DNA of 64,000 bases, taken from positions 31,138,333-31,202,332 of the forward strand of contig OX419756.1 in assembly GCA_948567375.1 (NCBI GenBank), written 5' to 3'. Below, one piece after another: positions 3,243 to 64,000 of this stretch (positions are counted from its first letter, which is position 1; the number at the start of each line of letters is the position of its first letter). The notes beneath the pieces are model-generated. The model was not told the origin of the DNA. It did not search any database and was given only the letters and a program-made list of their open reading frames with translations. Origin of the DNA: Lunularia cruciata. Taxonomy: Eukaryota > Streptophyta > Marchantiopsida > Lunulariales > Lunulariaceae. The position numbers and the translations under genes are program-made.

Positions 3243-3343
3243 TTGTTACGTGTTGGTGATGTATCATACCCTATAGAGTTGATGACAGTTGGAAACAACC
3301 ATTAAACAGCGCTCAGTGACTCAAGCGACGCTGATATCTTCAT

Positions 3344-28930: not shown

Positions 28931-31900
28931 CATGGTACCCACATTTTTTTTCCTTTTGTTTTGTTATAGTTTTTGAAGAAGAAGTTAGTAAGAAAGCCAA
29001 ATTATGAAGGAAAGAATGCACGGGTGTGTCTTTGGAGTAAACCCAAAGAAGTCAACTTTGGGTCAAAAAGCAGAAGTACTCGGATGGAGAGTACAAAGAG
29101 ACAAGTCCAAAGAAGTACTCATCTTCAGACCGGAATGCAAAGGCCAATACAAAGATGGTCTAACAACCTTTCTATATGGCAAGAATGTACACTTCAAGAA
29201 ACAACAAAGGTAGGAGAAACATGCCTTGACAGTGATAGGAAATCAACATGCAGAAGAAAGGGGAGTCAATTTTGAAATTGACTGAAGAATGACTGCACTT
29301 TGGAGTAATATAAAATTGTGACTGTGCAGGGGGAAATCAAATATGTCAAGTAGATATCCTGTTCCTCCGAGTAGTCATCCTACAATAATGTGTGTCAAGA
29401 AGCCAATTGAGAGTGAAATTTTCCAAAGTCCTGAAGGGGTTAGAGTGTCACATCTAGGAGAGGGAATAGTTTTCCAATGCCAAAAAATGAGAGATCAAAT
29501 CATGGCAAAGAAGGTCAAGGCTAAAAACTCGTAGTAAGGAGCTTTGCAATTTGGAGATTAGATGTCATAGCAAAGATCAAAGTCTTGAATAGACTTTGTA
29601 TTACATTTTTAGCTTGGAATTGGAATTTTAGTTTCCCAAGAGTCATGGCAAAGATAACTACCAGTAATTGTGAGGAAGACCTTGAAGTCGAGGAGAAGAG
29701 AGCAAATTCCAGCTTGATGGACTAAGTTGGATTGGAGGTTAGTATTGGGGAAGGAAGCAGGAGAGGCGACCGGTGTTGTACTTTCCTTTTCTCTCTCTGG
29801 GAACACACAGGGTGCCTAGTTGTGGAGACTACAGATCAGAGGCTAGAGGTAAACTGTAATGACTTGACAAAACACACATGTGACCCTTATTGCCGGAACC
29901 CTCCTTTCTCATGACTAATATTGTTGCTATCGGGAAGGATAGTACCAGGCAACCTGACCTATCATCACAACATGCACTCCTGGTCTGTTGGTCATCACTT
30001 CCAACATAACCAAGGAGAAATACACAACACTCCTAGAAGGAAATAATTTGAGCGCAACGCCCGCACACCAATCCAAGCCAACTGGGCATACAAATAGGCA
30101 TACAAGTACAAAGAGGATCCAATCACAAGAAAAAGGCAACAACTCTCTGTACTTTTTGTCGGTAAAGAGCTTCAGAGCCTTTCCAACTCCAGTCTTTAGA
30201 TGTGGATCAATTCCTGAGCTGGGCTAACTTGTGAGCTCTACAGACCCAGGTGTACTTCATCCAAGATCCTGATTTCTCTATTTGAAGAATTCACATGAAA
30301 CTTTCACACAAAGGAGCTAAACCTATCCACCAACAACTCTGGAAATTTTCATGAGGAAATTCGAACTACAACTTGGGGAGTGACCAAAACTCCAAACATC
30401 ATCATTAGCTCTTCTCCAACACCTTACATCCCATAAGCTTCAACTTCAATCAATTGGATCTGATTTGAGATTGACCCAAAACCAGAATTTATGGCACTTA
30501 GTACTGTAAAAACATTATTTACTCTCCAATCCCACTAACAGATAGTGAGAAGGTTTCAAGAAACTCCCTCAATTGACTACTTTGTGCTCCTGGGTATGAA
30601 TTCAACCCCCCTTCACTCAATTGATCATATCCCTCTCATAATCAGCTCAAATCGAGTGATTTTTGGAAGCAAATTGTAGCCTATTGTCTCCTCCTTTCAA
30701 CCATGTCCTCCATTCCTTTAATGCCCTCCCCGAACATCCCCAATGATCAAAAAACTCCCAACTTCCCCCTTGAGACCCAAGTTCTTGCACATTTGTCCTT
30801 TACTCTTTTTACTTTTTGACAAATAGACCCCACAACTCCACCTTGAAGCTTATGAGCAAAATTTTAGGCATTCCCCAACTATAGAAGGACATTATTGTCA
30901 AATCCCAGACATTCTCATAAGTAAGCACCGAAAGGACAATAGGATCTGGGTTTCCCATCACTGACTCTACAAACACCACCCTGAAACGTGCTACCAACCA
31001 ATCCCGTAAGTCATCACGGTGTAAAATCTGAAGCCTGATGAGAAAAGGATTCGGGAGTGGCAGATTGGGAGCATGGGACATCTCATGCTCAAATTCTTCC
31101 TCTGATGCTCTAACACTCGCACTCTACTACAACTCTCTCCCAACTTCCTTCTCTCCTCGAGACGCTCCAAACTAAAACACACCCGTCTCTCTACTCGCCC
31201 TCATCTTTATTCATCAGAGCCCTCAAACATGATAAGATTGTAACCCATGTGGCCAATCACATACATGTACATAGATGGCTCACATGGCAACATCTCATCC
31301 GTCGGATCTAGCATGCAACCTACCCTACTAACATGGACATAAACTATGATAAGTCACTTTTTACGGGCTGCACAAACCACAACACGACACCGGGATCACC
31401 TTCAATCAGAAGTGTGATGCTGTAGAGGAGACTACAAGAAATTGCAATTCATTCTTTGCTCTACAAACAACTAATGGTTACAAAGTGGAGTCCTATTAGG
31501 ACCCGATTAAACAAAGCATTGTTGGAGTAATCATGGCTATGTTCAAACCTAAATGAATGACATATGTGGATATGCAGCAGACCATCTTCTTCCAATTGAT
31601 GTTTGCAGGAGTGAAGGTAAACTATGCAAAGTGCTTCCACCAATGAACGAGGTAGATGGTCATCTATTGGAGAACTAATTCACCTCCACATTATTTCATC
31701 TCATTTGTAGTACATTCTACTTTAGGTTAAATTTGTTGACCATGGAGGAGAGTGACGCATGGTATCACATTTCCATCCTGATCTACAACAAGAAGCGGAT
31801 GAAGAAGTGCAACACTATATGACACACATCCGGGCTAGTGATGATCACTTCATCAAAATGGGATAGAAAGAGAGGGAAGAAGTAAGAAGTCCAAAGACAA

Positions 31901-34297
31901 AGAAGCAAACTAAACCCAAAGAGGAAGATTTGCCTCAAGCATAGCAAAAGACCCAAAGACTTACTCTGTGAGGTAAGAAGTTGGTGAGAGAAGAGACTTT
32001 GGAAATTTAGTATGAAGTGGAGATAGAGTCTAGAGGAGGAGACTCAGAAGAAGCAAAGCTCACATTACAAAGTGGGGAATCCGGAAGTGAGAGTGATGGA
32101 GAAGAGGAAGTTCAGCAATCGGCTGAAGCGGAAGTGGATGAAGAATTTAATGCAGCAATTGATCATATGGAGGGAAGTGATAATCCCTATGTAGCCTTGG
32201 TTATGGAGGATATGGGGAACCAATGGAAGAAGAAGACCCTATAGGACCAAGTTTAGTTGGTATGGAAGAAGGAAGCTCTGATGCGATATCACTGAAAGTA
32301 CAAAGATCAAGACTTTGGGAGGAGTCGGCAGAAGAGACAAAGTATGAAGATGGGGTCAAAGATGAAGAGAACTTTGGAGGAGTACAATACTTAACGCAGG
32401 CTGTGACTCCATTGTTGGAGCAGTTAAAAGCACAATAGAAGGTAATCCCACAAGATTAAAGGAGGGTGAAGAGTGAGTTGCAGATGGTGAAGTCTTTCCT
32501 AGACAAAGTAAAGGGATTGCAAGAACATGTAGCTCAAAGAGAAGAAGAATTTGAGGAGCTTTGGGTGGATACAATCTTGGAGAGGAAGACTTTCAAGAAG
32601 TTGCAAGAGAGTTTTGAGTCAAGGGGAAGAGAGAGGCAGCATCAAGCCAAAGCATTGAAGGAGCAAATTATGTTTCTAACAAAGATGAAGGAGGAAGTCA
32701 GTGAAGCACACATCAAAAGTATTCATGTGAAGGTGATGACAAAATGGAGCAGGAGTTACAAGGCCTAAAGAAGAGTGCAATAGGGAAAGATCAAGCATGG
32801 CAGAGAGAGCAATTGATCCAACATCAAGAAGAAGAAAGATCAAGAGACTTGGTAAGAATTGTTGAGTTACAAAGTTCTTAGGATGTGGAGGAGAAGAAGA
32901 TGCTTATTGTTGAGTACAAAGACGAGTTGAAGATGTATCGGGAACAATTAAAGGCAGAGTGATCTTGGGGATATGCATCAGAATCAGTAGGAGAAGTTCT
33001 TGGAAGAATGAAAGCAATGTTGAGCACAGAGGCTGAAGGAGGTTGGAAGAAGCAAGACTACATGAATTGAAGTTGCTTGTACAGGAAACTCAAAAGAGAA
33101 GAGCAAAGGATGTCAATATGAACACTCTTCTAACTCGTTTAAGGGAGAGAGTAGATAGAAAGATGTTGGAAGTAGGAGACAATGTCAATCTCAAATTAGA
33201 TTTAGTGAATTCACAATAAGGGAGAATTAAAATTTAGTGTGCAAGAAGATAAGAAATCCAAAATTGTAGAAGTAGGAATGCATGTGTCTTTGGAGTTGTA
33301 ATTTTAGACATTAGAGAAGAGTGGGTTAGGAGATAAAGAGTTAAATAAGGTACCTACTAGTGCAATTGTAGTTCAGAGAGAAGAAGTAGTAGAAATAGTG
33401 AAGGATTTAGTAGTTGAAGACATACCCAAAGAGGGAGAAATAATAGGAAGATCATTGGGTTTGGAAGCCAAAGAAGAAGTAGACATCGGATCGGAGTAGT
33501 AACAATTTTGAGATTTGAAGAGGCAGATATGAAGAGGTGGTTTGTCATTTTGGATCTGCAAGTTTGTAGAGTTGTTGTAGAACGGTATACTTGTTAGTAA
33601 TTGTTGATTGCTTTACTACTTAAAGGAGGCATTCATAGTATTATGGTGTTCAATATTCCAAACTTTTTAAGATAGATAAAGTGAAGTGTTGATTTTAGTG
33701 CTCGTTGCTTGAGCTTAATTCTGAGTTTCAACTCTGTCTTTGTAATTGTGAGTGTTGGGGGAATTTTGAAGTGCAAATCAATGTGTTTTATGGATGTTGG
33801 ATTCCACAGCCTTGATCTTCATTCTGTCTGTTTGATCCTAAGTGAAGTGCAATCGGAGCAATGCCTTGATAGATCAGAGAAGAATTGTAGTGTTGGTAGT
33901 ATTTTATAGTTGTGAGTGCAGTGTAGTGTTGATGTGAAGCAATTTTGATTGAGGAAGTTGTGCCTTTGGTAGACGGGTGGAACACAATTCTGAGGTGAAG
34001 TCATTTTGCAATGAAGTGCCGTCTTTGAGAGAATTTGAATCATCACAATCAAGGTTTGTTTGGACAGAATTTGTTATATTGTGATTATGAGTGTGTGCAT
34101 TAGTGACAAGTTGTCAAGATTCAGTCCTTGTTATTCTCTTTTGGGTGTGGTTTCTACTTGAGAGATAAAAGACGCAACCAAGAAGAACTACTTGTTATTG
34201 TTTGAGTTTGTATTTGACCAATTCTAAATTATATCTTTACGGGAACAAACTTTACTTACTTGATTACCGCAAAAGTGATATTTTCCGGGTTGTCACA
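28931..34297 (+). mobile_element. coding long LTR, copy A (3' LTR of gypsy)
   Basis: Starts CATGGTACCCACATTTTTT next to the purine tract and ends CCGGGTTGTCACA at 34297. Without the 1.6-kb insertion at 29774-31389 it is about 3.75 kb. Order: about 410 bp of upstream LTR, TATAAAA at 29309, an ORF region from an ATG at 29342 to about 33.5 kb, a second TATA-like box (CTACTTAAAG, 33617), then about 670 bp to the end. The encoded protein begins MSSRYPVPPSS and has a plant-transposon-protein-like region, an acidic region and coiled coils. It is broken, with more than ten breaks, and among the older copies. Confidence 0.8.
29774..31389. mobile_element. TG...CA insertion with CCGG duplication
   Basis: A 1,616-bp insertion in LTR copy A. 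It starts TGTTGTAC, ends CACGACA and is flanked on both sides by CCGG (29770-29773 and 31390-31393). The empty site can be read in copy C: from GAAGCA to GGATCACC the two copies have equal length once one CCGG is removed. TG...CA ends and a short duplication suggest a solo LTR or a small LTR-type element. No ORF with a known domain is present. The minus strand has an AATAAA-like signal near its start. Family unknown. Confidence 0.65.
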
Positions 34298-34743: not shown

Positions 34744-37088
34744 TGTGGTGCACACATTTTTTGTTCTTTTTTGTATTGTTAGCATTTGGAGAAGAAGTAA
34801 GTAAGGAAGCTGAATTACAAAGGAAATAATGGACGGGAGTGTCTTTGGAGGGAATCCAAAGAAGTCAACTTTGGGTCGGAGAATAGAAATACTCAGAAGG
34901 GGAGTATGAAGAAACAAGTCTGAAGATCATCATCTTTGGATTGGGAAGCAAAGGCTGATATAAAGACCGTCTAACAACCTTTCTATGTGGCAAGAAAGTA
35001 CACTTCAAGAAACTGTAGAGGCAAAAGAAGCATGTCTTGATAGTGACAGGACATCAATACGCAAAAGAAGGGGGAGTCGATTTTGAAATTGATTGAAGAA
35101 TGACTGCAATTTGGGGCAATATAAAATTGCAATTGCACAGGGTAAAGTTGAATATGTCAAGTAGATTTCTTGTTCCTCTGAGTAGCCATCCTGCAGTAAT
35201 GCGTGTCAAGAAGCCGATTGAGAGTGAAATTTTCTAAAATCCAAAGGGTGTTAGAGTGTCTCGTCCAGGAGAGTGAATAGTCTTCCAATGCCAAAGAACA
35301 AGAGAGCAGATCATGGCAAAGAAGGTCAAGAATGCCCTTGCAGTAAGAAGTTTTGCAATTTGGAGGTTGGATGTCATAGCAAGGATCAAGGTCTAGAATA
35401 GACTTTGCATTACTTTCCTAGCGTGGAACTGGAATTTCAATTTCCTAAGAGTTGTGGCAAAGATAGCTGCCAATAATTGTGAGGAAGGTCTTGAAGTTGA
35501 GGGGAAGAGAGGAAATATGGCTTGATGGACTGAGACAGATTGGAGGTTAGTGTTGGGGAAGGAAGCATGAGAATCAATGTGGATCACCTTCTATCGGAAG
35601 TGTGATGCTACAAAGGAGACTATGGACATATGCAATTTTTTCTTTGCTCCCTGTATAATGAATGGTTACAAAGTGGAGTCCTATCGGGACCCAATTAAAC
35701 AAAGTATCATGGGGATGATGATGGCAATATTCAAACCAAAACAAACGACTTACATGAACATGCAATAGGCGGTCTTTTTCCACCAGATGTTTGCAGGAGT
35801 GAAGGTGAATTGGGCAAAGTGTTTTTATCAACAAACAAGGCAAATCGTTGTTAATTGGAGGACAACTTTGCCTCCACATTATTTTGCACCATTTGCAGCA
35901 CATTTATACGTTGGGTTAAATTTATTGACAACAGAGGGAAGGCTATGGATGGTATCACATTTTCATCCTAATTTGAGACGGGAAGCGGATGAAGGAGAAC
36001 AACAATACATGGCACACCTGCGAGCCAATGATGATCACTTCTTGAGAACAGGACAATAGGGGATGGAAGAAGTCATAAGCCCAAAGACAAAGAAGCAGAA
36101 TAAACCCAAAGAAGCAGAATAAACCCAAAGAAGCAGAGTTGCCTCTAGCACAAAGAAAGACCCAAAGACTTGTTCAGCGGAGTAAGAAGGCGGCGAAAGA
36201 AGAACCTTCACAAACCGAGTCTAGAGGAGAAGACCCAAAAGAAGCCAAGCGATCTCGAGGGTATGAGTTGGAATCAATAGGAGAAGTTGTGGATAAATTG
36301 AGAGCTATGTTGAGCATGAAGGCTGAAGGAAGATTGGAAGAAGCAAGACTACACGAGTTAAAGTTGCTTGTGCAAGAAATTTGGAAGAGAAGAGCCAAAG
36401 ATGTTGATATGAACACTTTACTAATCTGATTGAGGGAGCAAGTAGATATGAAGATGCTAGAAGTAGGAGACAATGTCAGTCTCAAATTAGATTTAGTGAA
36501 TTCAAAGTTAGAGGGAATTAGGAGTAGTGTGATAGAGCAGAAAAAGTCCGATGTTGCAAAAGTAGGAATTCAGGTGTCTTTGGACTTGTTCTTTGAGACA
36601 TTAGCAAAGAGTGGGTTGTTAGATAAGGAAGTAGATAGATTACCCATGAGTTCAATTGTAGCTCCTAGTGAAGAAGTAGTAGAAATGATGAAGGATTTGG
36701 TAGTTGTAGATATATCCAAAGAAGGAGAAGTAATAGGAAGATCATCGGATTTGGAAGCCGATGAAGAGATTGACATCAGATTGGAGTAGATATAGACTGA
36801 GATTTGAAGAGGCAGATATGAAGAGGTGCATTGTCATTTCAGATTTACAGGTTAGAAGAGTTGTTATAGAACGGTATAGTTTTTAATAACTATCGATTGC
36901 TTTACTATTTAAAGGAGAGTTTTTATAGAAAGGTAAAGTTTTTGGTAAATGTCGATTGCTTTACTATTTAAAATAGGCATTCACAATAAAATGTTGTTCA
37001 ATATTCATATTTATAAAGATAGATAAAGCAAAGTGTTGATTTCAGTGCTCGTCACTTGAGCTTAATTCTGAGTATCAACTCTACATGT
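34744..37088 (+). mobile_element. coding long LTR, copy C (truncated)
   Basis: Starts TGTGGTGCACACATTTTTT, placed inside the tail of another copy, and breaks off in the downstream LTR part near 37088. TATAAAA (35120) precedes an ATG at 35154 by 34 bp. The ORF region reaches 36789. Recognisable parts are the conserved core (SYRDPIKQSIMGMMMAIF, PPHYFAPFAAHLYVGLNLL), a linker rich in Lys and Glu, and a coiled-coil part with LRAMLSMKAEGRLEEARLHE. The middle of the protein is shorter than in copies I and K. Two copies of the CTATTTAAA box follow the ORF (36905 and about 36964). Broken, with about six breaks. Confidence 0.78.
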
Positions 37089-37463: not shown

Positions 37464-40400
37464 TGCACAACTTCCTCAATCAAAATTGCTTCATATCAAT
37501 ACTATGTTGCACTCACAATTGCAAAATACTACCAACTCTACAATTCCCCTCAGATCTGTCAAGGCATTGCTTTGATTGCACTTCACTAAGGATTAAACAC
37601 ACAAAATGAAGATCAAGGCTACGGAATCAAACATTCAACAATCGCATTGACTTGCACTCCAGAATTCTCCAAACACTCACAAACACACACACAATGCTAA
37701 TACTCAGAATTAAGCTCAAGCGACAAGCACTACTTCATAACACTTTGCTTTATCTATTCTCAAAAATTATAAGTTCTAAACAACATAACACGGTGAATGT
37801 CTCCTTTAAATATTCAAAGCACTTCAGCTATTAACTAACTTCCTAAAGTGCTTCCTAACAACTCTAACCTTTAGATCTAAAATGACAATGCACCTCTTCA
37901 TATCTGCCTCTTCAAATCTCAAAATTGCTACTACTCCAAACCAATATCTACTTCTTCCTCAGCTTCCAAACCCAAAGTAACCTCACATACTACTCTATCC
38001 TTGGGTTTCACAACTACTTACTCTTCTACCAATTCTAACACCTCTTCACTTTGATTTACAATTCCCATCATGGGCAATCTACACACATCTTCTCCTTGCA
38101 ACCCACCTTTCTCTAATATCTCCAATGGAAAATTTGAAGACATATGTACTCCTATCTCTTCTACTTTGGGTTTAGCTCTGACATCCTTCCAAAGTTTATC
38201 TCTCTCTAACTTAACTAAATCTAATCTAATTGTGATATTGTCTTCCACTTCCAATATCTTCCTATCTACACAAGTTCTGAGACTAATTAGCAAAGCATTC
38301 AAGCCCTTATCTTTTGCATTTCTTCTCCTTGTCTCCTGCACCAACAATCTTAACTTGTGCAACCTTGTTTCTTCAATCCTTACACTAGCTTTTGTACTCA
38401 ACATCACATTCATTTTCACTACTATCTCCTCCAATGGCTCAAGCCTCATCCTTCTCTCACATTCCAGATCTGCATGCCATTCCTCCTAGTACATTGCTAG
38501 CTCTGCCTCAAATTTGGCCTTCACAATCTCCTTCTTGTTCTCTTTCTGCACTACCTTCTCTTCCAAATTATGAAGTAACTCCCTCAATCTTTCTTCTTCT
38601 CTATACCCCACTGTTAACTCTCTTTGCCAAAGTAGCTTTTTCTCTTCTACACTCTGCATCACTCTATTGAGCTCTTGCTCCTTCTTTGCTATTCTTGCCA
38701 AAGCATGGATGATCTCTAATCGTGAATCAACAAACTGCTGTTCAAGATTTCATACTCAGCTATCTTTCTTTCCTTGGCTAGGATATTTGCTCTATTACTC
38801 TCTCTTTACTTCCCACATCTCTCTTGAAGTTCTCAATTACTTGATTTTGTACTATTGCATCGACTCTTAGTACCTCCCTTTGCTCCTCTCCTTGGATTAT
38901 ACTCTCCTTCAACTTTGAGTTCTCTTCTTCTAACCTCACCAACACTTGCAACACAATCTTTACCTCCAGACACTCTGACTGCATCTCTTTCTTCTTCTCC
39001 TCCAGCTTTATCAACAACAGGCAAACAATCTCCCACAGATACTCCACTCTTCCCCTTTGATTCACTTCTGCTTGTAGGCTTTTCTCCTTCTTTTGCTTCT
39101 TCTTTCCCTAACACTCTTCTCCTCAGCCAAAGTCGCCTGATTGGAATTGATTCCTTGCTCCCCAAACTTCCACTTTCAATTTCTCTTCTCCTACTTGGTC
39201 TTGCCTCATATGTTGCTTTTCTTCTTGAGCGGACACTCTCTGAATGACAACCTTCTTCTCCTCTTTCTCTGGAACTTTGTCTTCTTCCTTTGGGTTATCT
39301 TCTTTTGACATCTCCAGCTTTCCCTCTTCTTCCTCTAGTACCGGCTGCATCTCCACTCCGTCTTCACTCTTACTACTTGCTTCACCACTTTGCAACGTGA
39401 GTTTGGGTTCTTCTTCTCTCTTTGAGTCTTCTGACTTGTACTTGACTTCCCCTTCTAATTCTTCTCCTCACAATGTGATTACCATTAGGTCCTTCTTTGG
39501 GTTCACTTTCTTGGTCTTCCAAGGTCTCATTGCCGCTACTTCTTCTGGTTGATTCCTCTTCTTTGACTTTAGAGCATTCACCACCAACTGCATGCTCTGG
39601 CCCGTCTATGCGTAATACTCATCACTGCTCTTAATCTACAGAAAGTATTGCTGCTCCTCCGCATCAACATCTCTCCTTAAGTTGGGATGGAAATGTGAGA
39701 CCATCTTGTGTCTTTCTGCCGCATTCAACAGATTCAATCCCAAATAAAAGTGGGCTGCAAACAACACAATGTAGTGTGGGGGTGACTTATCCTTCAAATT
39801 CCACACCATCTGTCTTGTGCGCTAATGAAAGCACTTTGCCCAATTGATTGGTTCCCCTTCAAACATCTTATGGAAAAACACCGCTTGATGTTTCATCACA
39901 TAAGTGGTTTGCTCCAACTTGAAGATAGCCATCATTGCTCCTACAATGCCTCTCCTCACAAGGTCCTTATAACTCTCAACCTTATGCCCATTCTTTGTGC
40001 ATTTTGAAGAAAAGACGTCTTGCACTTCTTGGGTTTCTTTAGCTACCTCTCCTCTCTCCAAGAATGTGGCTTCTTGCTCCTCACCCGCCTCTCTTTTGAG
40101 TACTAACCTCCAATCTGACTCTATCCATTGAGCTGGATTTCCTCGCTTACCCTCTGCTTTGAGTCAGTCCAAACACTTACTCTTAATGATCTTGGTCATG
40201 AAACTTGGAAAACTAAGATTCCAGTTCCATGCCAAAAATGTGATCCAAAGATTGCTCAAGACTTCAATTCTTGCGACCACATCTAGCCTCTAAATTGCAT
40301 GATTTCTCACTGCAAATTTTGAGTTCTTCTTTCCACCTCCTATCTTACTCTCCTCCACTTTGGGTTGGTGATTATTCTTCCGCCCAACTTCCGGACTAAC

Positions 40401-40915
40401 TCTCTTGACTTCCTCTTGATGCACAAGCACGTCTCTTACAACACTCCCTTTCCCAATCTCCCTTAGGACGACTCCTTAATAGCGATGGGAAATTACTTGT
40501 CATCTCTTTGTCTCTATCCCAAATTTTATAGTGGCACATCTCCTCAGTCTTTCTTCACTTCTAGCTTCTACCAAGAAATCACACCTTTTGCATGCTCCTA
40601 TCAATGTCAATTTTCCCCTGCTCATAGGCCAGCTGTTTTTATGTGCGGTACCTTCTTGAATGTCCAACCCCAAAGGAAAGTTGTTACACTATCCTTGCCT
40701 CGGGTTGAGCACCCTTGAGATGAAGTCTACTTACTTCAGGTTGAATGCTGACAGGACCAATCGGATCACTTTGTCTCTTGACACAAAGTCACTTTACCTT
40801 GGGTTACAACTTGAAGACACCATTCTTTGCCTTTTAATGCCATATAGGCACAATAAAAATTTTTTTGTACACTTCTTCTTCATAAATAAGAAAAAAAAAA
40901 AATGCGGGTACCACA
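37464..40915 (-). mobile_element. coding long LTR, copy E (truncated)
   Basis: Head at 40915 (TGTGGTACCCGCATTTTTT reading leftward); the tail stops within the downstream LTR part near 37464. TATAAAA (40530-40524) precedes an ATG at 40503 by 27 bp. The protein starts MTSNYPSLLRS-like, so this is a subfamily different from A, C, F and J. The conserved core lies at about 40.05-39.65 kb, an acidic/basic linker at about 39.6-39.1 kb and coiled coils at 39.1-38.0 kb. Broken, with about ten breaks. Its head abuts the interior of copy F, so it inserted into or recombined with F. Confidence 0.78.
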
Positions 40916-43036
40916 ATCTTTGTCTTGCTTTGCCATTGCTTCACTTTTCTTTACAAAATCTTCTATTAGGCTCTTGATTTCTTTCCTCCTAAGTTCTACC
41001 TTAGCCCGCAACTCTTCTACTTCTCTTTCTCCTTGGATTAACCTGCATTTTAAATCCAAACTTTTTTCACTCATGTATTGTACTACTCTCAATTCATCTT
41101 TCAACTCTGAATGACTTCTCATCAACTCTTCTCTCTTCTTCTTCAATTGCAACAACAATGGACAAAAAATCTTCAACAAGTACTCCAATTCCTCAAAGTC
41201 TCCTACAATTTGTAGATCTTTGGGCCTTGTATCCTTTACTTCTTCTACTTGAGCTTTACTCCAAAGTCTCAATCTTCTCACTCTTAGAGGCATATTATCT
41301 GAGATGTCTCCTTCTTCATCTACTTGCCTTGCTTCACTCAATTCTGCAACTATAGTATGTGCATTTCTTTTTGATCTAATCCCTTTCTAAAACCCCAACT
41401 TTGGCTTGGCTTCTTGGGTTTCTTCAATCTCCATCCGTGGCAATTCCTGACAAGGAATATCTCCTCCTCCCATGCAATCAATCACGGCATGGAACTCTCA
41501 ATCGTTGTCCTTAGCATTGTTCTCTCCCAATTGCTGAAATTCTAGTTAATCCTTACTTCCATTGCTTGACTCTTCACTTCACAACATGAGCTCTAGTTCT
41601 TCCTCCTCTCACAAGTCTTTTGACTTATACTTGGGTTCTCCTTCCAATTCTTTTGCTCTTGATGACTCATTGATCATTACAATGTTGTGCTTTGGCTTCA
41701 TCTTTCTTGTCTTTTGTGGCTGAACTGGTGATAGCTCCTTAAGATGCCTTTTCTTCTTTGTCTTTGGAATAGTCATTGCTACTCTCATGTGTTGGCCCAT
41801 TTTAGCATAATGCTCATCACTACTTTGGATGTGTTGGATATACTACTACTCCTCCGCATCCACTTCTTTTTGTAAATCCGGATGAAACACCATCTTCTTT
41901 TGCTCCGCCTCATTCATCAGATTCAACCTGAAATAGAAATGCAATGGGAATGGCACCAAATAATTGGAGCTACTTGATCTCTCCAACTCCACACCAACTA
42001 CCACATTCACTAGTGAAAACACTTTGCCCAATTCACTGGTGCTCCTACAAACATATGGTGGAAGAATATGGCCTGGTGCTTCATCACATACATGGTCCGA
42101 TCTGGCTTGAAGAGTGCTATCATTGCCCTAACAATACTTTGCCTCACCGGGTCTTGATCTCCCTTTTCTTGAGGAATGTAGCCCCGGTTTCCTCACCAAC
42201 CTCTCTCCCTAGAACCAATTGCCAATTTGACTCTGTCCATCAAGCCGGATTGACTCTCTTCCCTTCTTCCTTGAGCCCCTCCTCACAATCTCTCATAGCT
42301 ACTTCTGCCATGAACCCTAGAAACCTCAAGTTTGAGTTCCATGCTAAAAAAGTGATCTAGAGTCTACTCAAAACTTTGATCCTTGCTATCATATCTAACC
42401 TCCAAATCATAGGATTTCTCACTACAAGTAAGGGACTCTTCTTCTCACCACTCATTGGCATCGTGTGATCTCTCACTCAAGGTAGTTGGATAATTCTACC
42501 ATCTCCTAATCTCAAGATTCTAAGTCCCTCAAGATTGTTTAACATCAAATTCTTGGATAGCTTTGCGACAAGCACTCCTTTGGGTTGACTACTAAGTGGC
42601 TTAAGATACTTGTGTGACATTTGGAAATCCCCTTGATGAGGTCTAGATTTTATAGTTTGTTGTTGCATGGTCGTTCCTCTATCACTCTCCATTAATAATC
42701 ACACATTTTGCATGAGTTCCTCCTGGCACTATCAAGTGTAGCTGCTTGCGCCTCAACAATTTTCTTGCTTTGTACTTTCTTGGTTGATAAACCCAAAGGA
42801 AAGTTGTTATGCTATCTTTGCATTGGATTGATCACCACAAGGCAAATTTTCCTTACTTTGGATTTCTCTGTGATAATTCTGTTTTGAGTTCTTCTTTTCT
42901 GACACAAAGTCAATTTACTTTGGGTTCAATCCAAAGTCACAATTCTTCTTCTTTTGTCACCATTTGGGTTCAAAATGACTTTGATTGTACACTTCTTCTT
43001 CAAAATATAACAAAACCAAAAAATGTGGGTACCACA
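40916..43036 (-). mobile_element. coding long LTR, copy F (truncated)
   Basis: Head at 43036 (TGTGGTACCCACATTTTTT leftward); it is cut at 40916 inside the coiled-coil region by copy E. TATAAAA (42654-42648) precedes an ATG at 42620 by 34 bp. The protein start MSHKYLKPLSSQPKGVLVAK is related to that of A, C and J. The conserved core and the coiled-coil part with YLLKIFCPLLLQLKKKREEL are visible. Broken, with more than eight breaks. Confidence 0.75.
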
Positions 43037-50760: not shown

Positions 50761-53700
50761 TATGGTACCCACAATTTTTTGTTTTGGATAGTTTTAGGAA
50801 ATTTGAAGAAGTATGTGGATAGAGCCTAAAGAGGGCTAACCCGAGAAGAAATAAGAAAAAAATGGGGGTTTGAAGTAAAACCCAAAGTTGACCTTGGGTC
50901 AAGATCGAAGGAGACATGAAGACAAAGAAGAAGAAGAAGAAGGAGAGACTTTTTATCGGGCGGTGTGATTTGATCCAAACAACTTGTAACAAAATTCTTC
51001 AGAGTTCGCCCAATCAAGAAAGTATGCGGGAGGAAAGTAATGACATCAAGATCAAGAACTTCTTGATAATGACAAGAAACAATTTCACCAAATTGGAGAC
51101 TGGAGAGGGGGAGCAACTAAAGAATGACCAATCGCGGAAGGACTATAAAATTACAAGTTGTGCAAGGAAGTAGAGCAATGTCCAGTCGCTACCCGATTCC
51201 TATTCAGAGTCAACCCGAAGTAATGCAAATTGCAAATCCATAGGATGAGGAGTGGGTTAGGATTTTGAGAACGATCTTCCACAAGAATTTTTTGCGTCAT
51301 AAGGCAAAGTACTCAGAACTGCCCTGCCAGCATACAACCCAAAGTAAGGAATCTTTGTATCGGGGGTGCTCAACCTGAGGTGAGGACAGTATAACAACTT
51401 TCCTTCGGGGTGAGAAATTCAAGAAGGGACCACTCAAAAATGGTGGTCATACGCATGAAGGACACTTGACACTGACAAGAGCATGTAGGAGGTGTGATTT
51501 CTCAGTAGAAACTCAAATTGAAGAAATACAAAGAAGGCGTGACTCTATAAAAATCAGGCTAAAGGCGAAGCAATGACAAGCAATTTTCCCTCGCTGTTAA
51601 GAAGTCGTCCTTCAAGAGATTGTAGGAAGGGAAGTAGAGTCAAAGACGCATTGGTGTGTAGAGAAGAATTCAAGAGAGCTTATCCAGGAATCAGTAGGAA
51701 GAATAGTCCCCAGCCTAGAGTGGAAGAGAGAAAGATGGGAGGAGGGAAGAAGAACTCCAAATTTGCATTGAGAAATCAAGCAATTCGGAAGTTAGATGTG
51801 ATTGCAAGAATTGAAGACTTGAGCACACTTCAGATCACATTCTTGGCATGGAACAAGAATGTAAGCTTTCCAGGGTTCATGAGTGAGATCATCAAGAGTA
51901 GATGTCTTGATGGTCCCAAGGAAGAAGGGAAGAGAGGTGATCTGGCTCACTGGACAAAGTTGGATTGGAGGTTAGTACTTGGAAGAGAAGCATGCACTGA
52001 GCATGGTGCCACGCTCTTGGGGAAGGTTGAAGTAGCAGAAGAAACCCATGAGGTGAGAAGGCGGTGCGGTGAGAAGGAGGTGCTTTCTCTTTGAAGCGCA
52101 CAAAGAATGGTTACAAAGTAGAGAGTTACAAGAATCCTGTCAAGTGAGGGATTGTGAGTGCTCTATGGCAATCTTGAAGCCAGAGAGAATGACTTATGTG
52201 ATGAAGCACCAAGCGGTGTTCTTCCATAAGATGTTTGCGGGAGAGCCGATTAATTGGGCAAAGTGTTTTCATGGGAGAACGAGACAGATGGTATGGAATT
52301 TGCGGGATAAATTGCCTCCGCATTACATTGTGCTATTTGCATCTCATTTCTATCTCGGGCTGAACTTGCTCAATGTGGCAGAGCGCAACAGGATGGTGTC
52401 GCATTTCCATCCCAACTTAAGAAAGGATGTTGACACGGAGGAGCAATAATACATTCTTCAAATCAGAAGCAGCAATGAGTACTACACGCAGACGGGAAAG
52501 AGTGTGCAGCTGGACGTGAGTACTCCAAAGTCAAAGAAGAGGAGTCAACAAGGAGAAGGAGAAGATGTTGAGAAAGTAAGACCTTGGAAGCCTAGAAGAG
52601 TAAACCGGAGGAAAGGTATGGTGGTAATTGCATCGTTGGAGGAAGAATTGAAAGGCAAAGCCGAGTGCAAGTCCAAAGACTCAAAAAGAGATGAAGAACC
52701 CAAGCTCACATTGCAGAGTGGAGACACAAGTAGTGATAGCAACAATGGAGGGGAGATGACATTGGTACCCAAGGAAGAGAAAACCAAGATGGAGATGGAG
52801 GAGAAAGGTAACTTGGAGTTGGAAGACAAAGTGCCAGAGCAGGAAGAAAGGAAAGTTACCATTCAACAAGGAGTTTGTTCTAGGTGAAAAGCAAAGTGTG
52901 GAGCAGGGCCAAGTAAGGTAAGAGAAGAGGAGGATGAAAGTTTGGGGAGTGAAGCATCCATTCCTATACGGCAACTACAACTTAGAAGGTGAGTTTTGAG
53001 TGAAGAAGAGGTGAAGAAGGAGATCACTCCGCAAGTTGAGGTAAATCTGAGTGAAGGAGTGGAGTACCTACGGGAGGTTGTGTGCCCATTATTAGTAAAG
53101 TTAGAGCACAAGAAGAAGGAGATGCAGTCAAAGTGTCTGGAGGTGAAGACTGTGTTGCAAGTGTTAGCACGATTAGAAGAAAAGAACTTGGAGTTGAAGA
53201 AGAGTATAATCCGAGGTGAGGAGGAAAGGGAAGTACTACAAGTAGATGTAGTGCAGAATCAAGTGCTTGAGAATTTGAGGAGAGAAGCAAGGAATTGGGA
53301 GGAACTAATAGAGTAGAATGTCATAGCAAGGGAAAAATAGATTGCTGAATATGAAATTTTGATGCAACAATTTGCTGATTCAAGACTAGAAATTATCCAT
53401 GCTATGGCAAGAATAGCAGAGAAAGAACAAGAGCTCAATAGAGTGATGGAGAGTGTAGAGGAGAAGGAAGTTGTGAAAGCCGAGTTTGAAGCAGAATTGG
53501 CAATGTATAGAGAAGATTGGCTTGCAGATCGAGAACGGGAGAGGAAATTGAGATTGGAGCCATTAAAGGAGATCGTGATCAAGATGAATGCGATGCTGAG
53601 TACAGAGGCTAGTGCATGCATCAAAGAGACGAGGTTGCACAAGTTGAAGTTGTTGGTGCAGGAGACAAGGAGGAGAAATGCAAAGGACAAAGACTTGAAT

Positions 53701-54412
53701 TGGAGACATTAGAGAAGAATGGATCGAGAGATAAGGAGTTAGATAGATTACCTACTAGCAGAATTTCACATAAGGAAAGAGAACTGTTAGATTTGGTAGA
53801 GGAATTAGGAGTTGTGAAACCCGAGGATAGAGTAGTAGCAGGTGAAGTTACTTCAGGATCGGGTTTGAAAGCTGAGGAAGAAGTAGACATCGGATCGGAT
53901 TGGTAGCAGTTTGGAGATTTAAAGAGGCAGATATGAAGAGGTGCATTGTCATTTTGGATCTGCAGGTTTGTATAGTTGTTAGGAAACGGTATTTTTGTTA
54001 GAACTGTTGTTTGCTTCACTATTTAAGAGTGGTATTTGCAAGAAATTGTTGTTCAGTGCTCATAATTTCTAAGAATAGATAAAGCAAAGTGCTGTGAAGT
54101 AGTGCTTGTCGGTTGAGCTTGATTCCGAGTATCAACTTTGTGTTTGTAATTGTGAGTGTGTGGAGAAATTCAAAGTGCAAGTTAGTGTGCTTGTTGGATG
54201 TTGGATTCCGTAGCCTTGATCTTCATTCTGTGTGTTTGATCCTAAGTGAAGTGCAATCGGAGCAATGCCTTGATAGATCTGAGAGGAATTGTAGTGTTGG
54301 TAGTATTTTGCATTTGTGAGTGCAGCGTGAAGTTGATGTGAAGCAATTTTGATCAAGGAAGTTGTGCCTTTAGTGGAGGCGTAGAACACAATTCTGAGGC
54401 AAAGTCATTTTC
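50761..54412 (+). mobile_element. coding long LTR, copy I
   Basis: Starts TATGGTACCCACAATTTTTT and is cut near its end at 54412 by another LTR. It seems to hold two ORF heads in a row. One has TATAAAA at 51144 and an ATG at 51178 (MSSRYPIPIQS). The other has TATAAAA at 51546 and an ATG at 51573 (MTSNFPSLLRS), as in copy E. The ORF region runs to about 53906. Its parts are an N-terminal segment (WTKLDWRLVLGREA), the conserved core (PERMTYVMKHQAVFFHKM, GEPINWAKCF, PPHYIVLFASHFYLGLNLL), an acidic linker and about 250 residues of coiled coil. The CTATTTAAG box is at 54019. Broken, with about six breaks. Confidence 0.8.
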
Positions 54413-57894: not shown

Positions 57895-60365
57895 TGTGGT
57901 ACCCACGTTTTTTGGTTTTGGATGGTTTTCATAAAGTTTTGAAGAAGAAGTATGTCGGTAAAGCTGAAGGAGGGCTAAACCGGAAGGAAAATGTGAAGAA
58001 GCATGTGTTTGGGCTAAACTGAAAGTTGACCTTGGGTCAAGTCTGAAGGACCTGAGGTAGACAAGAGGGAAAGGCAAAGAAGAGGACTTCATATTGGGTA
58101 GTGCAGCCTGATCCAAAGAACCTATAACAAACTTCTTTGTGGTTTTCCAATCAATAAAGTATGCGGGAAGAAAGTGACGACCTTGGGATCAAGAAGTTCT
58201 TGACAATGACATGAAACAACCTTATAGAATTAGTGACAGGGACGGAGAAGCAACTGAAGAATGACCGACCAGCAAAGGACTATAAAATCAAGATTTTTGT
58301 GAGGAAGCATCACAATGTCTAGATGCTACCCTGTCCCTATTCAAAGTTGACCCAAAGTAATGCAAATTGCATATTTGCAAGAAGACAAGTGGGTTAGGAT
58401 CTTGGGAACAATCTCTCACAAGAAGAGAGTGAGGAAACACATGATGGCCCCAAAAGTGAGTAAGTAGAGTGCGGTAAGAAGTCTTGCAATGCATAGATTA
58501 GATTGTAGCAAGGATCAATGTCTTAGCAAGACTTCATATCACGTTCTGGGTTTCATGGCAAAAATTGCCGCAAGTGATTGCAAGGATGGGGCAAAGCATA
58601 CAGGGAAGAGAGGGAATCTGTCTCATGAGTTGCATTGGAGATTAGTCCTTGGGAGAGAAGCAAGAGAGGTAGGAAGTACCACCTTCTATCGGAAGTGTGA
58701 TGCCTCAACAAGGACTACCAAGGTGAGAAATTCTTTCAATTGACATCACACCAAGAATGGGTATAAGGTGGATAGCTATAGAGACCCCAAGTAGAGAGGG
58801 ATTGTTAGTGCAATCTTGGCAATATTCAAGCCAAAGCGAACCATCTATATCACAATGCAATGTGCGGTGTTCTTTCACGAAATGTTTGCAAGAGAAGTAG
58901 TGGATTGGGCAAAATGTCTACATCAGCAAGTGGGGTAGATGATTTTGGGTTGGAGGATGGACATGCAACCACATTAATTTTTGCTCTTCATAGCTCATTT
59001 CTTCTTTGGGCTGAATTTATTGTGGAGGAGAGAAAGGAGGAGTGGATCTGCACAAGGAGGCGGATGCGGATGAATGATATTATATGGAGTGGGTGTGAGA
59101 AGAGGACAAGTACTACAAGAAGAGTGAGAAGGAGAGAATTGTAGCAGTTGATATCACCAGGGCAAGAAAGAGAACTAAACCTGAAAGTTGCCTTGTGGTA
59201 GAACAACCACAGAAGATCCAGAAGCCTAACCCAAAGGCAATGTTGGTGAAAGCAAAGAATCAACTTCAGAAGAAGAGGAGGAGTCCGAGGGAGAAACTGA
59301 GTGGAAGGGAGAAGCTTTGGGAGGAGAAGAAGAGTTCACACTGCAAAGTGAAGAGTCAAGTAGTGGTAGCAAAGGTGGGGCAGAGATTTAGCAAACCCAA
59401 AGATGGAGTGCAAATGTAGGGAAGCCAAGTCAAGAGGTGTCTACCATAGAACAAAGGTGTGAGAGGAAGGAAGAAGAAGGAGTCTTGGTATGTCCAAGAA
59501 CTGTTAGGGGGGAGAGAAGTGTGCATGCAACCAACATGGGGCCCAGTAAAGTCACCATAGAAGAAGAGGAGAGCTCTGATCAGGAGACATTGAAGGTACA
59601 AAGATTGTGACTTTGGGGTAAGGAGCAAGTAGAAGAGTTCCTTGTAGACTGCAACAAAGCCCAGGCCGATGAAAAGAAGTACAATGGGATGGAATATCTA
59701 TCAAAGGTTGTGTGTACGTTGTTAATTTTTCTGCATCAGAAGAAAGTAGAGATGGCAAGTGCTAACCTTGACGTGAAAGATGAGTAAGCAATAGTAGAAA
59801 AGTGGAGTGCAAAGACCTCTTGTTAAGAAGTAAATGAAGACAAGTAGAGATATTGGATAACAAGTGCAAGTCAAAGTGTTTTTTGGATGTTAGATTCTGC
59901 AGCCTTGATCTTCATTTTGTGGGTTTGATCCAAAGTGAAGTGCAATCGGAGCAAAACCTTGACAGATTTAAGAGGAATTGTAGAGTTGGTAGTATTTTAC
60001 ATTTGTCAGTGCAGCGCAAAGTTGATGTGAAGCAATTTTGATTGAGGAAGTTGTGCCTTCAGTGGAGGGGTGGAACACAATTCTGAGGTGAAGTTGTTTT
60101 GTAGTGAAGTGCCATTTTTGGGAGAGCCTAAATCATCACAATCAAGATTGATTGGAAAGATTTGATGGAGTTGTGATTAAGAAGTGTTAATTAGTGCTTG
60201 TTATTCTTCTGGGTGTGGTTTCTACCTGAGAGATTAAAGATGCAACCAAGAAGAACTACATTGTTACTATTTGCTTTGTATTTGGACATTTCTTACTAGT
60301 ATCTCTGTGGGAACAAACTTTACTTACCTGATTACCGCAAATGTGATATTTGCCGGGTTGTCACA
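57895..60365 (+). mobile_element. coding long LTR, copy J, with primer site after it
   Basis: Both ends are present: TGTGGTACCCACG at 57895 and GCCGGGTTGTCACA ending at 60365. A primer binding site follows 7 bp later, so this is a 5' LTR. TATAAAA (58281) precedes an ATG at 58315 by 34 bp. The ORF region is shortened in its centre; a decayed N-terminal part, part of the core and an acidic/coiled-coil part can be seen to about 59.8 kb. Broken, with more than ten breaks. This copy is the best evidence that the whole coding unit is an LTR. Confidence 0.82.
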
Positions 60366-60940
60366 TGATTTTTGGTGCCACTGCCGGGGATACAAATCTT
60401 GGAAGTGGAAGAATACAAAGCCAAACTCAAAACTGGGTGTTAAAGCAATATGAATGTTTGCATCAAGAGAACAATAGGAAGAGAGAGTTTGAAGATGAAC
60501 ATCGCATCATGAAGAAGATAAACACCTAAAGGTTCAATCTACTTTTGACAAAACCGAATGAGAGACGTTGGACTTTTAACTTCTCCACGAAGTGCAAGAA
60601 GCCGTGCGAGAACTTGACCAAAAGAAATGCAAAGGCGGTTGGCAAGGCTTCTTCTCATCTCCATCTTCTAAGAAGAAGAAAGACCCAAGCGGGCAAACAA
60701 ATTCATTACGGCCCAGTACACCAACTTCCCCTAGAGCTATAAAGGAAGTCGCATCTCTGAAGAATTTTGTTCAAGAAAAGACAACACGGACACTAATGGA
60801 AGAAGAGTGGCAACACCTTTTATGTACGATTCCTCAATTGTCTTGAAGGAATTTTGCAGAACACTCCGAAGGTGTTGAGCCTGATTCTTCTACTTGGGTT
60901 GAAGTTGACACCTCCTGAGAAGAAATTGTCAAAGAAGAGC
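60366..60940 (+). mobile_element. primer site and leader of coding-LTR gypsy
   Basis: TGGTGCCACTGCCGGGGA at 60373-60390 matches 15 of 18 bases of the Athila/Tat-type primer site TGGCGCCGTTGCCGGGGA, the complement of a plant tRNA-Asp 3' end. The following 550 bp are the element's leader or the start of gag; a Lys/Ser-rich stretch (about 60.6-60.85 kb) has no recognised domain. The segment is cut off by copy K, which lies in the opposite orientation. Confidence 0.75.
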
Positions 60941-63900
60941 TGTGACAACCCGGCAAATATCACTTTTGCGGTAATCGGGTAAGTAAAGTTTGTTCTCGCA
61001 GAGATACAAGTCAGAATTGGTCAAATACGAAGCAAAGTAACAATTTCAGTTCTTCTTGGTTGCGTCTTTAATCTCTCAAGTAGAAACCACACCCAGAAGA
61101 GAGTAACAAGCACTGACTCGCAGTCTTGTCACAAATCAAAATTGCTTCACATCAACTCCGCACTGCACTCACAAAAGCAAAATACTACCAACACTACAAT
61201 TCCTCTCAGATCTGTCAAGGCATTGCTTCGATTGCACTTCACTCAGGATCAAACACACAGAATGAAGAGCAAGGCTGCGGAATCCAACATCCAACAAACA
61301 CACTGACTTGCACTTCGATTTCTCCAAACATTCACAAACACAATTACAAAGTTGATACTTGGAATCAAGCTCAAGCGATGAGCACTGCTTCACAGCACTT
61401 CACTTTATGTATTCTCAAAAATAATGAGCACTGAACAACATCTGACTGCGAATGCCACTCTTAAGTAGTGAAGCAATTGACAATTCTAACAACTATACCG
61501 TTCTACCACAACTGTTCTAACCTGCAGATCCAAAATGACAATGCACCTCTTCATATCTTCCCCTTCAAATCTCAAATCGGTTACTAATCTGATCCAATGT
61601 CTACTTCTTCCTCGGCTTTCAAACCTAAACCCGAAGTAATCTTAGTTCTTACTACTCTTTCCTCGGGTTTCACATCTCCTACATCTTCTACCAGATCCAG
61701 CAATTCTCTTTCCTGATCTGAAATTGCACTAGTGGGTAATCTATCTAACTCTTCATCCTTCAACCCACTCTTCTCTAATGTCTCTGAGGGCAACTCCGAA
61801 GACATTTGGATTCCTATGTTATCTACTTTGGGTTTTGCCTTAACATCCTGCCAAAGCTTTTCTAACTCTATTTTCACTAAGTCTAATCTAATTGAAATGT
61901 TATCTTCTACCTCTAAAATCTTTCTGTCTATGCGAGTTCTGAGACTAATCAAAAAGGCATTCAAATCAATGTCCTTCGCTTGTCTTTGCCTCGTCTCCTA
62001 CACCAACAACTTCAACTCGTGCAGTCGCGCTTCTTCAATTCGAACGCTGGCTTTTGTACTTAACATTGCGTTCACTCTGAGGATTATTTCCTTCAATGGC
62101 TCCAATCTTGTCTTTCGTTCTCATTCCCGATTTGCAAGCCATTCCTCTCTGTACATCACCAATTCTTCTTCGAACTCGGCCTTCACTGCCTCCTTCTCTT
62201 TCTCCTTCTATACGATTTTCTCTTCCTGATTACAAAGTAATTCTCGTAATCTCTCTTCTTCTCTATACCGCACAGACAACTCTCTTTGCCACAGTTGCTT
62301 CTTCTCCTCCATACTCTCCATCACTCGATTGAGCTCTTGGTCCTTTGATGCTACCCTCGCCATAGCATGGATAAGCTCTACTCTTGAATCAGCAAACTGC
62401 TGCTTCAAGATTTCATGCTCCGCTACCTGTCTCTCCCTTGCGATGTCACTCTTCCTCGCAAGATCCTCTCAATAACTCACTTCTCTCTTCAGGTCTTTGA
62501 TTACCTGACTTCTCTCTACTGCTTCCGCTCGTAGTACTTCTCTCTCTTCCTCACCTCGGGTTACACTCTTCTTCAACTCTGAGTTCTCTTCTTCTAATCT
62601 TGATAAGACCTGCAAAACAGTCTTTACCTTTGGACAAGTAGATTGCATCTCCTTCTTCTTCTGTTCCAACTTCACCAACAGCGGGCACACTACTTCTTGC
62701 AGGTAATCTACTCCCTTATTGGCAACTTCTTCCTCCCGCAGAGTAGTCTCTCTTCTCTCTTTGTGTTCTCCCCATACTCGCCTTCTTCTCTGGAGTCTTC
62801 GTATCGGAATCGACGCCTCACTACCCGAGCTTTCTTCTACCTCTTCCTTCACTTGACTCGGCCCCGCTTCACACTTCGCCTTACGTCTCGAGAGAACTCC
62901 TTGCTGTACTACAATCTTCTTCTCCTCTAGCACCGGTACTTTGTCTTCCAGTGCCGCATTGTCTTCGGCTTCTACTTCGGCCTGCACTTCTTCTTCATAT
63001 TCTTCCGCCGTTGGTGCCGAGGTCATTTCTACACCGTCTTCATTGTCACTGCTAGTATCTCCACTCTGTAGTGTCAGCTCAGGTTCCTCCTCATGTTCCG
63101 AGTCCTCCATTTTGAGCTTGGCTTCTCCTTCTGAGTCTTCATCTTCTGACTCAATCACCACCATCCCTCGCCTCGGGTTATTTTTCTGCATCTTTTGAGG
63201 TTTCTTGTTTTCTTTGGCTTCTGCTTGCCGAGTTCTCTTCTTCGTCGGGGTTTTTACCATGACCTCCACGTTTTTCCCTGTCTTCGCATAGTAGTCGTCC
63301 GTGGTCCGGATTTGGAGAATGTATTGCTGCTCCTCCGCGTCGACTTCTCTTCTCAAGTCAGGATGGAAATGAGACACCATTCTATTGCGCTCCGCCAAAT
63401 TGAGCAAATTCAACCCGAGGTAGAAATGTGCTGCAAATGGTACGATGTAGTGTGGAGGCGACTTATCCTGCAGATTCCACACCATCTGCCTCGTTTTCCC
63501 GTGAAAGCACCTTGCCCAATTGATTGGTTCTCCTGCAAATAACTTGTGAAAGAACACCACTTGGTGCTTCATCACATACGTGGTTCTCTCCGGCTTCAGG
63601 ATGGCCATTAGTGCACTCACAATTCCTCTCCTCACAGGGTCTTTGTAGCTCTCAACTTTGTACCCATTCTTTGTCCTCTTTGACGAGAAGGCATCTCTCA
63701 CCTCCTGCGTTTCTTGGGCTATCTCTCCTTTCCCCAAGAACGTGGCTCCCTACTCCAAACCCGCCTCCTTCTCGAGTACGAGTCTCCAATCCAACTCTGT
63801 CCAGCGAGCCGGATTTCCTCTCTTCCCTTCTTCCTCAAGACCATCGAGACATTTACTCTCGATAATTTTTGTCATGAATCCTTGAAAACTTACGTTCATG

Positions 63901-64000
63901 TTCCATGCCAGAAAAGTGATCCGAAGTCAGCTCAAGACTTTGATCCTCGCTACTACATCTATTCTCCAAATCGCATGATTTCTCATTGCAAATTCAGAGT
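60941..64000 (-). mobile_element. coding long LTR, copy K (best preserved, runs off edge)
   Basis: Tail end at 60941 (TGTGACAACCCGGCAAATATCA on plus strand); the head lies beyond 64000. The downstream part has CACTACTTAAG (minus strand, about 61.47 kb), the TATA-like box just after the ORF. The unit differs little in layout from copy I and is the least decayed, so it is probably the youngest in the window. It faces copy J tail to tail across the 575-bp leader. Confidence 0.82.
61584..63920 (-). pseudogene. LTR-borne coiled-coil protein ORF (copy K)
   Basis: The longest uninterrupted stretch exceeds 400 codons. Order of parts from the N-terminus: a segment with WTELDWRLVLEKEAG; the conserved core, NGYKVESYKDPVRRGIV through ILKPERTTYVMKHQVVFF, GEPINWARCFHGKTRQMV and PPHYIVPFAAHFYLGLNLL; a basic patch; a long acidic linker; IPIRRLQRRRRVW; and then several hundred residues of heptad-rich coiled coil ending EEEVDIGSD. 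The core pattern (T..V......F.....G..IN.A, then P.YI.PF) resembles the 'putative plant transposon protein' domain (PF20167) found with plant retrotransposons; this is inference from memory. Broken, with about four or five breaks. No signal peptide or membrane segment is seen. Confidence 0.7.

Follow-up and report, generated by a model that had tools for sequence, protein, structure and literature searches.

The stretch of Lunularia cruciata DNA analysed here (64,000 nucleotides, referred to below as the window) carries remnants of a Ty3/gypsy retrotransposon family whose long terminal repeat (LTR) holds a protein gene, probably in its U3 (unique 3′) part. An original prediction, made from the letters of the window, had noticed units sharing a head (TGTGGTACCCAC or a close variant) and a tail, and had proposed that the unit between the two, with its open reading frame (ORF), is the LTR itself. 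This was followed up in the window's own genome (565.8 Mb, 74 contigs), and the proposal held. A single LEAFY-domain locus, matching the sequence of the Ginkgo LEAFY structure, marks this genome as a plant one. Units of 3.6–4.0 kb are the true LTR of a Ty3/gypsy retrotransposon, because they are found as solo LTRs with 5-bp duplications and as pairs around gag-pol, with the primer site and the purine tract at their exact borders. The gene lies wholly inside the LTR, in paired and in solo copies, and is therefore duplicated at each insertion and left behind in solo LTRs, as had been expected.

Exact copies of the head were found 2430 + 2409 times in the genome, compared to 26 + 17 for the reversed pattern. 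Target duplications were scanned at neighbouring exact heads on one contig, C1, a non-random choice of loci, all of which were included together with the window. Twenty complete head-to-tail units were obtained. Exact 5-bp duplications flanked 11 of them, against 2 of 380 cross-paired flanks. Among the other 9, two had duplications with one mismatch, six adjoined signals of an internal region, either a sequence like the primer site after the tail or a purine-rich stretch ahead of the head (script detection for four, reading by eye for L013 and L023), and one (L027) showed neither. Unit sizes fell mainly into two classes, about 1.7–1.9 kb and 3.6–4.0 kb, each with 5 exact duplications; the eleventh belonged to a 5.6-kb unit.

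Pairs of long units in direct orientation, enclosing a primer site, gag-pol and a purine tract and bordered by 5-bp duplications, which the original prediction had named as its check, were also found. One element on contig C1 (8685140-8706592, minus strand) has LTRs of 3781 and 3746 bp that are 89.9% identical in a single end-to-end alignment, with the duplication AAGGG on both outer sides, a purine tract adjoining the 3′ LTR and a primer-site-like sequence after the 5′ LTR. It spans 21.5 kb and, by reading of its ends, appears to hold foreign sequence inside. Further elements came from a genome search with the protein encoded in the window, which yielded 25,714 candidates at first look; the 98 that were scored all have at least 87% identity. 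Twelve of these 98 best matches form 6 same-strand pairs 8,995–9,976 bp apart, versus one opposite-strand pair 8,952 bp apart. The latter consists of well-matched gene copies at C8:34692905 (−) and C8:34701857 (+), and is either an inverted pair or two neighbouring insertions. Ends were read for 5 of the 6 same-strand pairs, the pair C2:66511333/66520328 being left out. Exact duplications surround the elements on C12 (13,711 bp, GCAAG), C6 (13,760 bp, AGAAG) and C11 (13,601 bp, TCTGT); all three have the primer site, and the purine tract was read in two. The head of the 3′ LTR was not found in the C11 element. Overall, 4 of the 5 elements with both outer ends read carry exact duplications (C1, C12, C6 and C11, versus C7). 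Both LTRs could be bounded in the C12, C6 and C7 elements and measure 3,779–3,784 bp, and the paired LTR ends match at 236/256 to 238/243 bases.

The short LTRs (1.7–1.9 kb) have the same ends as the long class and lack most of the gene. Six of them on contig C1 are listed in Table 1; the 5-bp duplication is exact in five and differs by one base in L028. In a blastn comparison, the likeness of short LTRs to the long copy L013 is confined to the first 24 bp and roughly the final 1040 bp. The shared 1040 bp includes some 240 bp of the 3′ end of the gene, of which L015:609980 keeps less. In the other five short LTRs this remnant shows an excess of third-position variation (0.237/0.171/0.338 at first, second and third positions), compared to 0.299/0.284/0.360 for the same stretch in ten long LTRs. 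Short LTRs may therefore descend from gene-bearing LTRs, or may still code for a short piece. At two further loci, L005 and L006, the sequence after the head, possibly that of a further LTR variant, could not be aligned with the start of the gene-bearing LTR; in L005 it contains CTTCGGACTTGAG-like tandem repeats.

The gene was best described in L064, an LTR on C12, which starts with the head and covers the LTR without its tail end. Its open frame has 878 codons, 811 of them from a conserved ATG at LTR position 551; 17 of 24 aligned copies have an ATG at this column. The gene occupies about two thirds of the LTR, in the same sense as gag-pol. In seven close copies, the counts for the three codon positions differ little or not at all from 260 to 550, and third positions are in excess from 551 onwards. 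An ATG at LTR position 413, close beside the TATA box, was considered as the start and dropped, the counts being nearly flat between 413 and 550. In the genome search, 25 of the 98 scored matches (window copy included) have no stop within the 426 residues that are open in the window. Neither the window frame nor an alignment of 57 pieces of the N-terminal part gave a protein homologue at E ≤ 0.001 among about 5.8 billion proteins. Against Pfam, an 857-residue frame and its N-terminal part had no match at E ≤ 1, and the window frame only matched Ribosomal_L34e at E 0.9, far below the cut-off; no PDB sequence matched the LTR protein at E ≤ 1. The frame had been described as a coiled-coil ORF. 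This is partly supported: in one copy, L064, the heptad pattern stands out only at residues 421-504 (1 and 6 of 400 shuffles), and weakly at residues 561-616 (32/400 shuffles). The LTR protein would combine a conserved N-terminal domain with an acidic middle part and a C-terminal half that is in part coiled coil.

Two TATA-like boxes bear on the place of the gene within the LTR. Of 24 copies, 19 have the first, TATAA, at one column (position 386 of L064), about 165 nt before the ATG. This TATA hexamer is the most conserved one between positions 350 and 559 (0.96 in 21 copies versus 0.50–0.88 for the others), and suggests that the gene has its own promoter. The second, TATTTAA, is present in 12 of 17 LTRs, long and short, at one alignment column that lies 656–681 nt before the LTR end; TATTTAAG, about 680 nt from the end, is the likely genomic promoter. 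Since this predicted promoter lies downstream of the gene, the gene would lie in U3, like sag of mouse mammary tumour virus (MMTV). A likeness to sag as an LTR-borne gene had been pointed out in the original prediction; the location inside the LTR is observed, and the U3 place is the more probable assignment from the conserved boxes.

In lentiviruses, nef is made from the 3′ copy of the LTR, on genomic RNA that is spliced or reads through. The gene described here, although real and selected, might likewise lack a promoter of its own and be made in this manner. It lies just downstream of pol, on the sense strand, and its TATA box is read from sequence only, all of which such an arrangement would accommodate. 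We consider it unlikely, though a serious alternative, given the conservation of the TATA hexamer relative to its neighbours and its fitting distance from the ATG. A less probable alternative is that the first TATA box, conserved at the start of the LTR, is the genomic promoter, the gene being then read first on the genomic RNA, upstream of gag, and lying in the R/U5 (repeated and unique 5′) part. Such an arrangement is at odds with the second TATA-like box being common to long and short LTRs, and with the long copy L013 sharing with short LTRs little else than their two ends.

A fortuitous frame, or a gene carried as functionless dead baggage, would agree with the fact that most copies examined are broken. 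It is very improbable in view of the codon-position signal. In 13 aligned long LTRs, whose proteins share about 37–87% of residues with the window protein, third positions vary more than first and second positions across the frame, and on the whole not in the flanks. The median ratio of nonsynonymous to synonymous rates (dN/dS) is 0.23 for the frame (74 of 78 pairs usable, 13 copies), against 0.72 (66 pairs) and 0.56 (78 pairs) for the two LTR flanks read in the same frame; as the NG86 ratio is biased, non-coding controls giving 0.56–0.72 instead of 1, it is the contrast that counts and not the absolute value. These patterns indicate that the LTR gene is kept by purifying selection.

Junctions were then counted genome-wide. 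The tail is followed by the primer site at 367 places and the head preceded by the purine tract at 338 places, the reversed patterns giving 0 in both cases. On contig C1, 55 tail/primer and 42 tract/head places form 5 facing pairs 5,551–6,157 bp apart; 3 junction pairs have other orientations within 20 kb. A true LTR reduced to the tail of 0.7–1.0 kb, with head and ORF as a single Athila/Tat-like internal region, would explain why the tail is the best conserved part (about 0.9 identity in places) and is common to both LTR classes, and is practically ruled out by whole 3.6–4.0 kb units with exact duplications, by the purine tract adjoining the head and not the tail, by the 3746/3781-bp pair of the C1 element, alike over 3.75 kb, and by the lack of any LTR-protein match in the internal regions L063 and L030. 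Having its own TG...CA ends and 5-bp duplications, the ORF-bearing unit could also be taken for a separate mobile element inserting by chance beside gypsy sequences, which is scarcely credible given the exact borders at which primer site and purine tract join the unit, the facing junctions 5.55–6.16 kb apart in 5 cases, and the paired units around gag-pol that share one outer duplication.

The internal region measures about 6.15 kb in undisturbed copies. That of the C12 element, L063 (6,149 bp), contains gag, zinc knuckle, protease, reverse transcriptase (RT), RNase H and integrase in gypsy order by Pfam, with protease (E 0.0015) and zinc knuckle (E 0.0013) scoring below the Pfam cut-off; in-frame stops and changes of frame interrupt it. 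The family is assigned to Ty3/gypsy on this domain order, on direct LTRs with TG...CA ends and target duplications, and on the primer site and purine tract at the borders. In L030, in L063 and in the window, purine tract and pol stop codon overlap. As pol ends at the purine tract and neither L063 nor L030 has an LTR-protein match, there is no gene between pol and the 3′ LTR; the extra ORF found at this place in Athila/OTA elements is absent from L030, L063 and the window. No chromodomain, the mark of chromoviruses, was matched by Pfam in integrase-end pieces from the same three sources. In RT-to-integrase pieces of one copy, Pfam found RT, RT_RNaseH, integrase and one weak DDE match, and no second RNase H of the kind that Tat elements have. 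The original prediction had spoken of a tRNA-Asp-like primer site, and indeed the commonest site listed, TGGCGCCGCTGCCGGGGA, is complementary over 18/18 bases to the 3′ end of the host tRNA-Asp, assuming a tRNA that ends in the usual G plus CCA (the ARAGORN gene call is one base longer). The complementary tRNA-Asp sequence is present at 13 places of the genome.

The heads and tails of the window were checked by sequence and assigned to strands. Heads lie at 28931, 34744, 50761 and 57895 on the plus strand and at 40915, 43036 and 47934 on the minus strand; 2 of these 7 are exact and the other 5 have 1–2 changes. Tails lie at 34297 and 60365 (plus) and at 45046, 46121 (1 change) and 60941 (minus). 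All seven heads and five tails that had been reported are thus present, and above chance. With up to 2 mismatches the head has 12 matches in the window (3.02 expected), 5 of them outside the seven, and with up to 1 mismatch the tail has 7 matches (1.23 expected), two of them new (5697, exact, and 43599, 1 change); 0 of 100 shuffles reached 12 or 7, respectively. The exact tail motif at 5697-5707 (−) is distant from the cluster described here. Two further features reported earlier, a purine tract preceding 28931 and a primer site following 60365, were read in the sequence as well.

Unit lengths in the window are 5.37 kb (28931-34297), 2.47 kb (57895-60365) and 1.8 kb (46121-47934), and the unit from 60941 extends past the window edge. 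Only this last copy keeps a long frame (62472-63749, 426 codons). Stop-broken relics of these 426 residues were found in 6 other units, and no match in the unit 46121-47934. The LTR at 28931..34297 is about 1.6 kb longer than the related LTR at 34744, and the latter (34744..37082) is inserted next to a tail piece of another LTR (34440-34743). No exact 5-bp duplications were found for four same-strand head/tail pairs, 1–9 kb apart, in the window. The coordinates of all features are given in Table 1.

Table 1. Features of the window (positions in the window) and short LTRs on contig C1 (locus name, then contig C1 coordinates).
Feature	Position	Strand	Remarks
Internal region (pol part), element 1	25682..28930	+	81% and 75% identity to internal region L063; Pfam RVT_1, RT_RNaseH
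RT of element 1	26706-27104	+	Pfam RVT_1
RNase H of element 1	27448-27798	+	Pfam RT_RNaseH
Integrase of element 1	about 27720-28916	+	likeness to L063; own Pfam score weak (E 0.2)
Polypurine tract GAGGGAGGGGG	28918..28928	+	overlaps pol stop codon; same junction type common genome-wide
3′ LTR of element 1, 5.37 kb	28931..34297	+	gene relic 31392-32163
Long LTR, head present, tail lost	34744..37082	+	gene relic 35586-36116
Long LTR, tail end lost	37465..40915	-	71% to L064 over LTR positions 1-3356; gene relic 38811-40070
Long LTR, head at 43036, downstream part lost	40967..43036	-	gene relic 40967-42156
LTR tail piece without head	45046..46120	-	sequence comparison
1.8-kb LTR, head to tail	46121..47934	-	426 residues searched without match; 5-bp duplication absent
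Long LTR, tail lost	50761..54411	+	gene relic 52005-53286
5′ LTR of element 2, 2.47 kb	57895..60365	+	head and tail, then primer site; gene relic 58681-59248
Primer-binding site TGGTGCCACTGCCGGGGA	60373..60390	+	2 bases off complement of host tRNA-Asp 3′ end
Internal region start, element 2	60366..60938	+	80% to L063 positions 1-576; cut off by LTR at 60941
Long LTR, tail at 60941, head outside window	60941..64000	-	89% to L064 LTR positions 570-3356
Open part of LTR-borne gene, 426 codons without stop	62472..63749	-	98 scored genome matches (own copy included), 87-100% identity
Short LTR, contig C1	L009:473615-475519		duplication scan
Short LTR, contig C1	L012:544973-546844		duplication scan
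Short LTR, contig C1	L015:609980-611701		duplication scan
Short LTR, contig C1	L016:8365085-8366859		duplication scan
Short LTR, contig C1	L017:8672166-8674066		duplication scan
Short LTR, contig C1	L028:882137-884048		duplication scan

The left part of the internal region of element 1 is lost next to a copia fragment: copia gag and Pol_BBD pieces (24489-25650, plus strand) lie directly upstream of the gypsy pol, with an element-type junction at about 25.68 kb. Elsewhere in the window, two adjoining frames of 393 and 454 codons (15966-18512, plus strand) look like a reverse-transcriptase element, the first one matching RVT_1 (E 1.2e-15) and the second one without Pfam match, and a piece of hAT-type transposase (DBD_Tnp_Hermes) lies at 4738-6003 on the minus strand.

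Besides the bias of the NG86 ratio already mentioned, several observations limit this reading of the family or speak against it. All gene copies in the window are broken or cut, and 73 of the 98 best genome matches have a stop inside the 426-residue stretch. No window unit is a clean LTR of 3.5–4 kb, so that the unit of this size with an ORF of several hundred codons, as originally described, is borne out by 3.6–4.0 kb units elsewhere in the genome and not inside the window itself. No exact duplication was found at the ends of the C7 element (13,720 bp), nor a 3′ end for the C2 element among the ends examined. The codon-position excess is missing at 1951-2100, inside the frame, and some excess is present at 301-450, before it (0.397/0.425/0.518). 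The 5′ and 3′ LTRs of the C1 element (L018 and L029) differ by a dN of 0.076 and a dS of 0.183; their ratio, 0.41, is below the medians of the non-coding controls, though both LTRs would be expected to decay freely. Promoter use, transcript and protein are predictions from sequence, and because no homologue and no Pfam or PDB sequence match was obtained, a function can only be argued from the shape of the protein.

With this in mind, transcription of a U3 gene of this family could start in either LTR of an element or in a solo LTR, and RNA running into the 3′ LTR could carry the gene as well. Its product might, tentatively, be an accessory protein that regulates in trans the transcription, silencing or packaging of the element itself. 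As for the origin, the gene may once have been an internal one, located between pol and the 3′ LTR, which came to lie inside the LTR when a purine tract at the pol stop codon took over plus-strand priming. A more doubtful extension is that the LTR works as a self-contained gene cassette. Each insertion would supply two copies, solo LTRs would still make the trans-acting protein for full elements, removal of elements would leave a dispersed gene family, thousands strong, and the short-LTR sister family would live off it. Both LTR classes being present in one genome, whether the gene helps transposition can be tested via recent activity. In any case, with a gene in the LTR every insertion doubles that gene, a solo LTR can preserve it when the element is removed, and LTR length becomes a coding matter and not a spacer.

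In the plant literature searched, LTRs are regulatory and extra genes are described as internal, as far as the portions available go. A review of additional ORFs names, in its accessible part, only those of the internal region (PMC7264820). No precedent for a gene in a plant LTR was met in that literature, which agrees with the original statement that no plant family with this layout is described, although absence cannot be proven in this way. Athila and Tat elements (Ogre, Retand), according to the available sections, have their extra ORFs in the internal region, and tRNA-Asp is among the primers listed there for non-chromoviruses (PMC6317226, PMC11963269, PMC7264820). Like them, the present family is a gypsy lineage without detected chromodomain and with an extra gene 3′ of pol; it differs by a pol that extends right up to the purine tract, by the position of the extra gene inside the LTR, and in that the pieces scanned gave no second RNase H. 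Rice Retrosat2, RIRE3 and RIRE8 also have long LTRs, about 3 kb or more, together with an extra ORF, ORF0, upstream of gag-pol (ORF1); the excerpt available does not describe ORF0 as belonging to the LTR (PMC3485330). Phygy and Selgy, non-chromovirus gypsy elements, resemble the present family by a polyprotein that fills nearly the whole internal region, and are set apart by being described, in the part accessible, as rather short (PMC6317226). In addition, Phygy is said there to prefer NCGN targets (PMC6317226), a motif seen in only 1 of the 15 exact duplications read here.

The nearest analogue is MMTV sag, also a protein gene in an LTR. No relation between the sag protein and the LTR protein described here is known. 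MMTV is an animal retrovirus with env, whereas the present host is a plant, the gene has about 811 codons and the LTR measures 3.6–4.0 kb. In MMTV, sag is an ORF of U3, and U3 contains a promoter, P2, besides P1, according to the part of the source available (PMC9412291). For the Lunularia family the U3 place depends on the second TATA box being the genomic one; if so, its LTR gene would be a plant counterpart of the U3 gene of MMTV, presumably reached independently.

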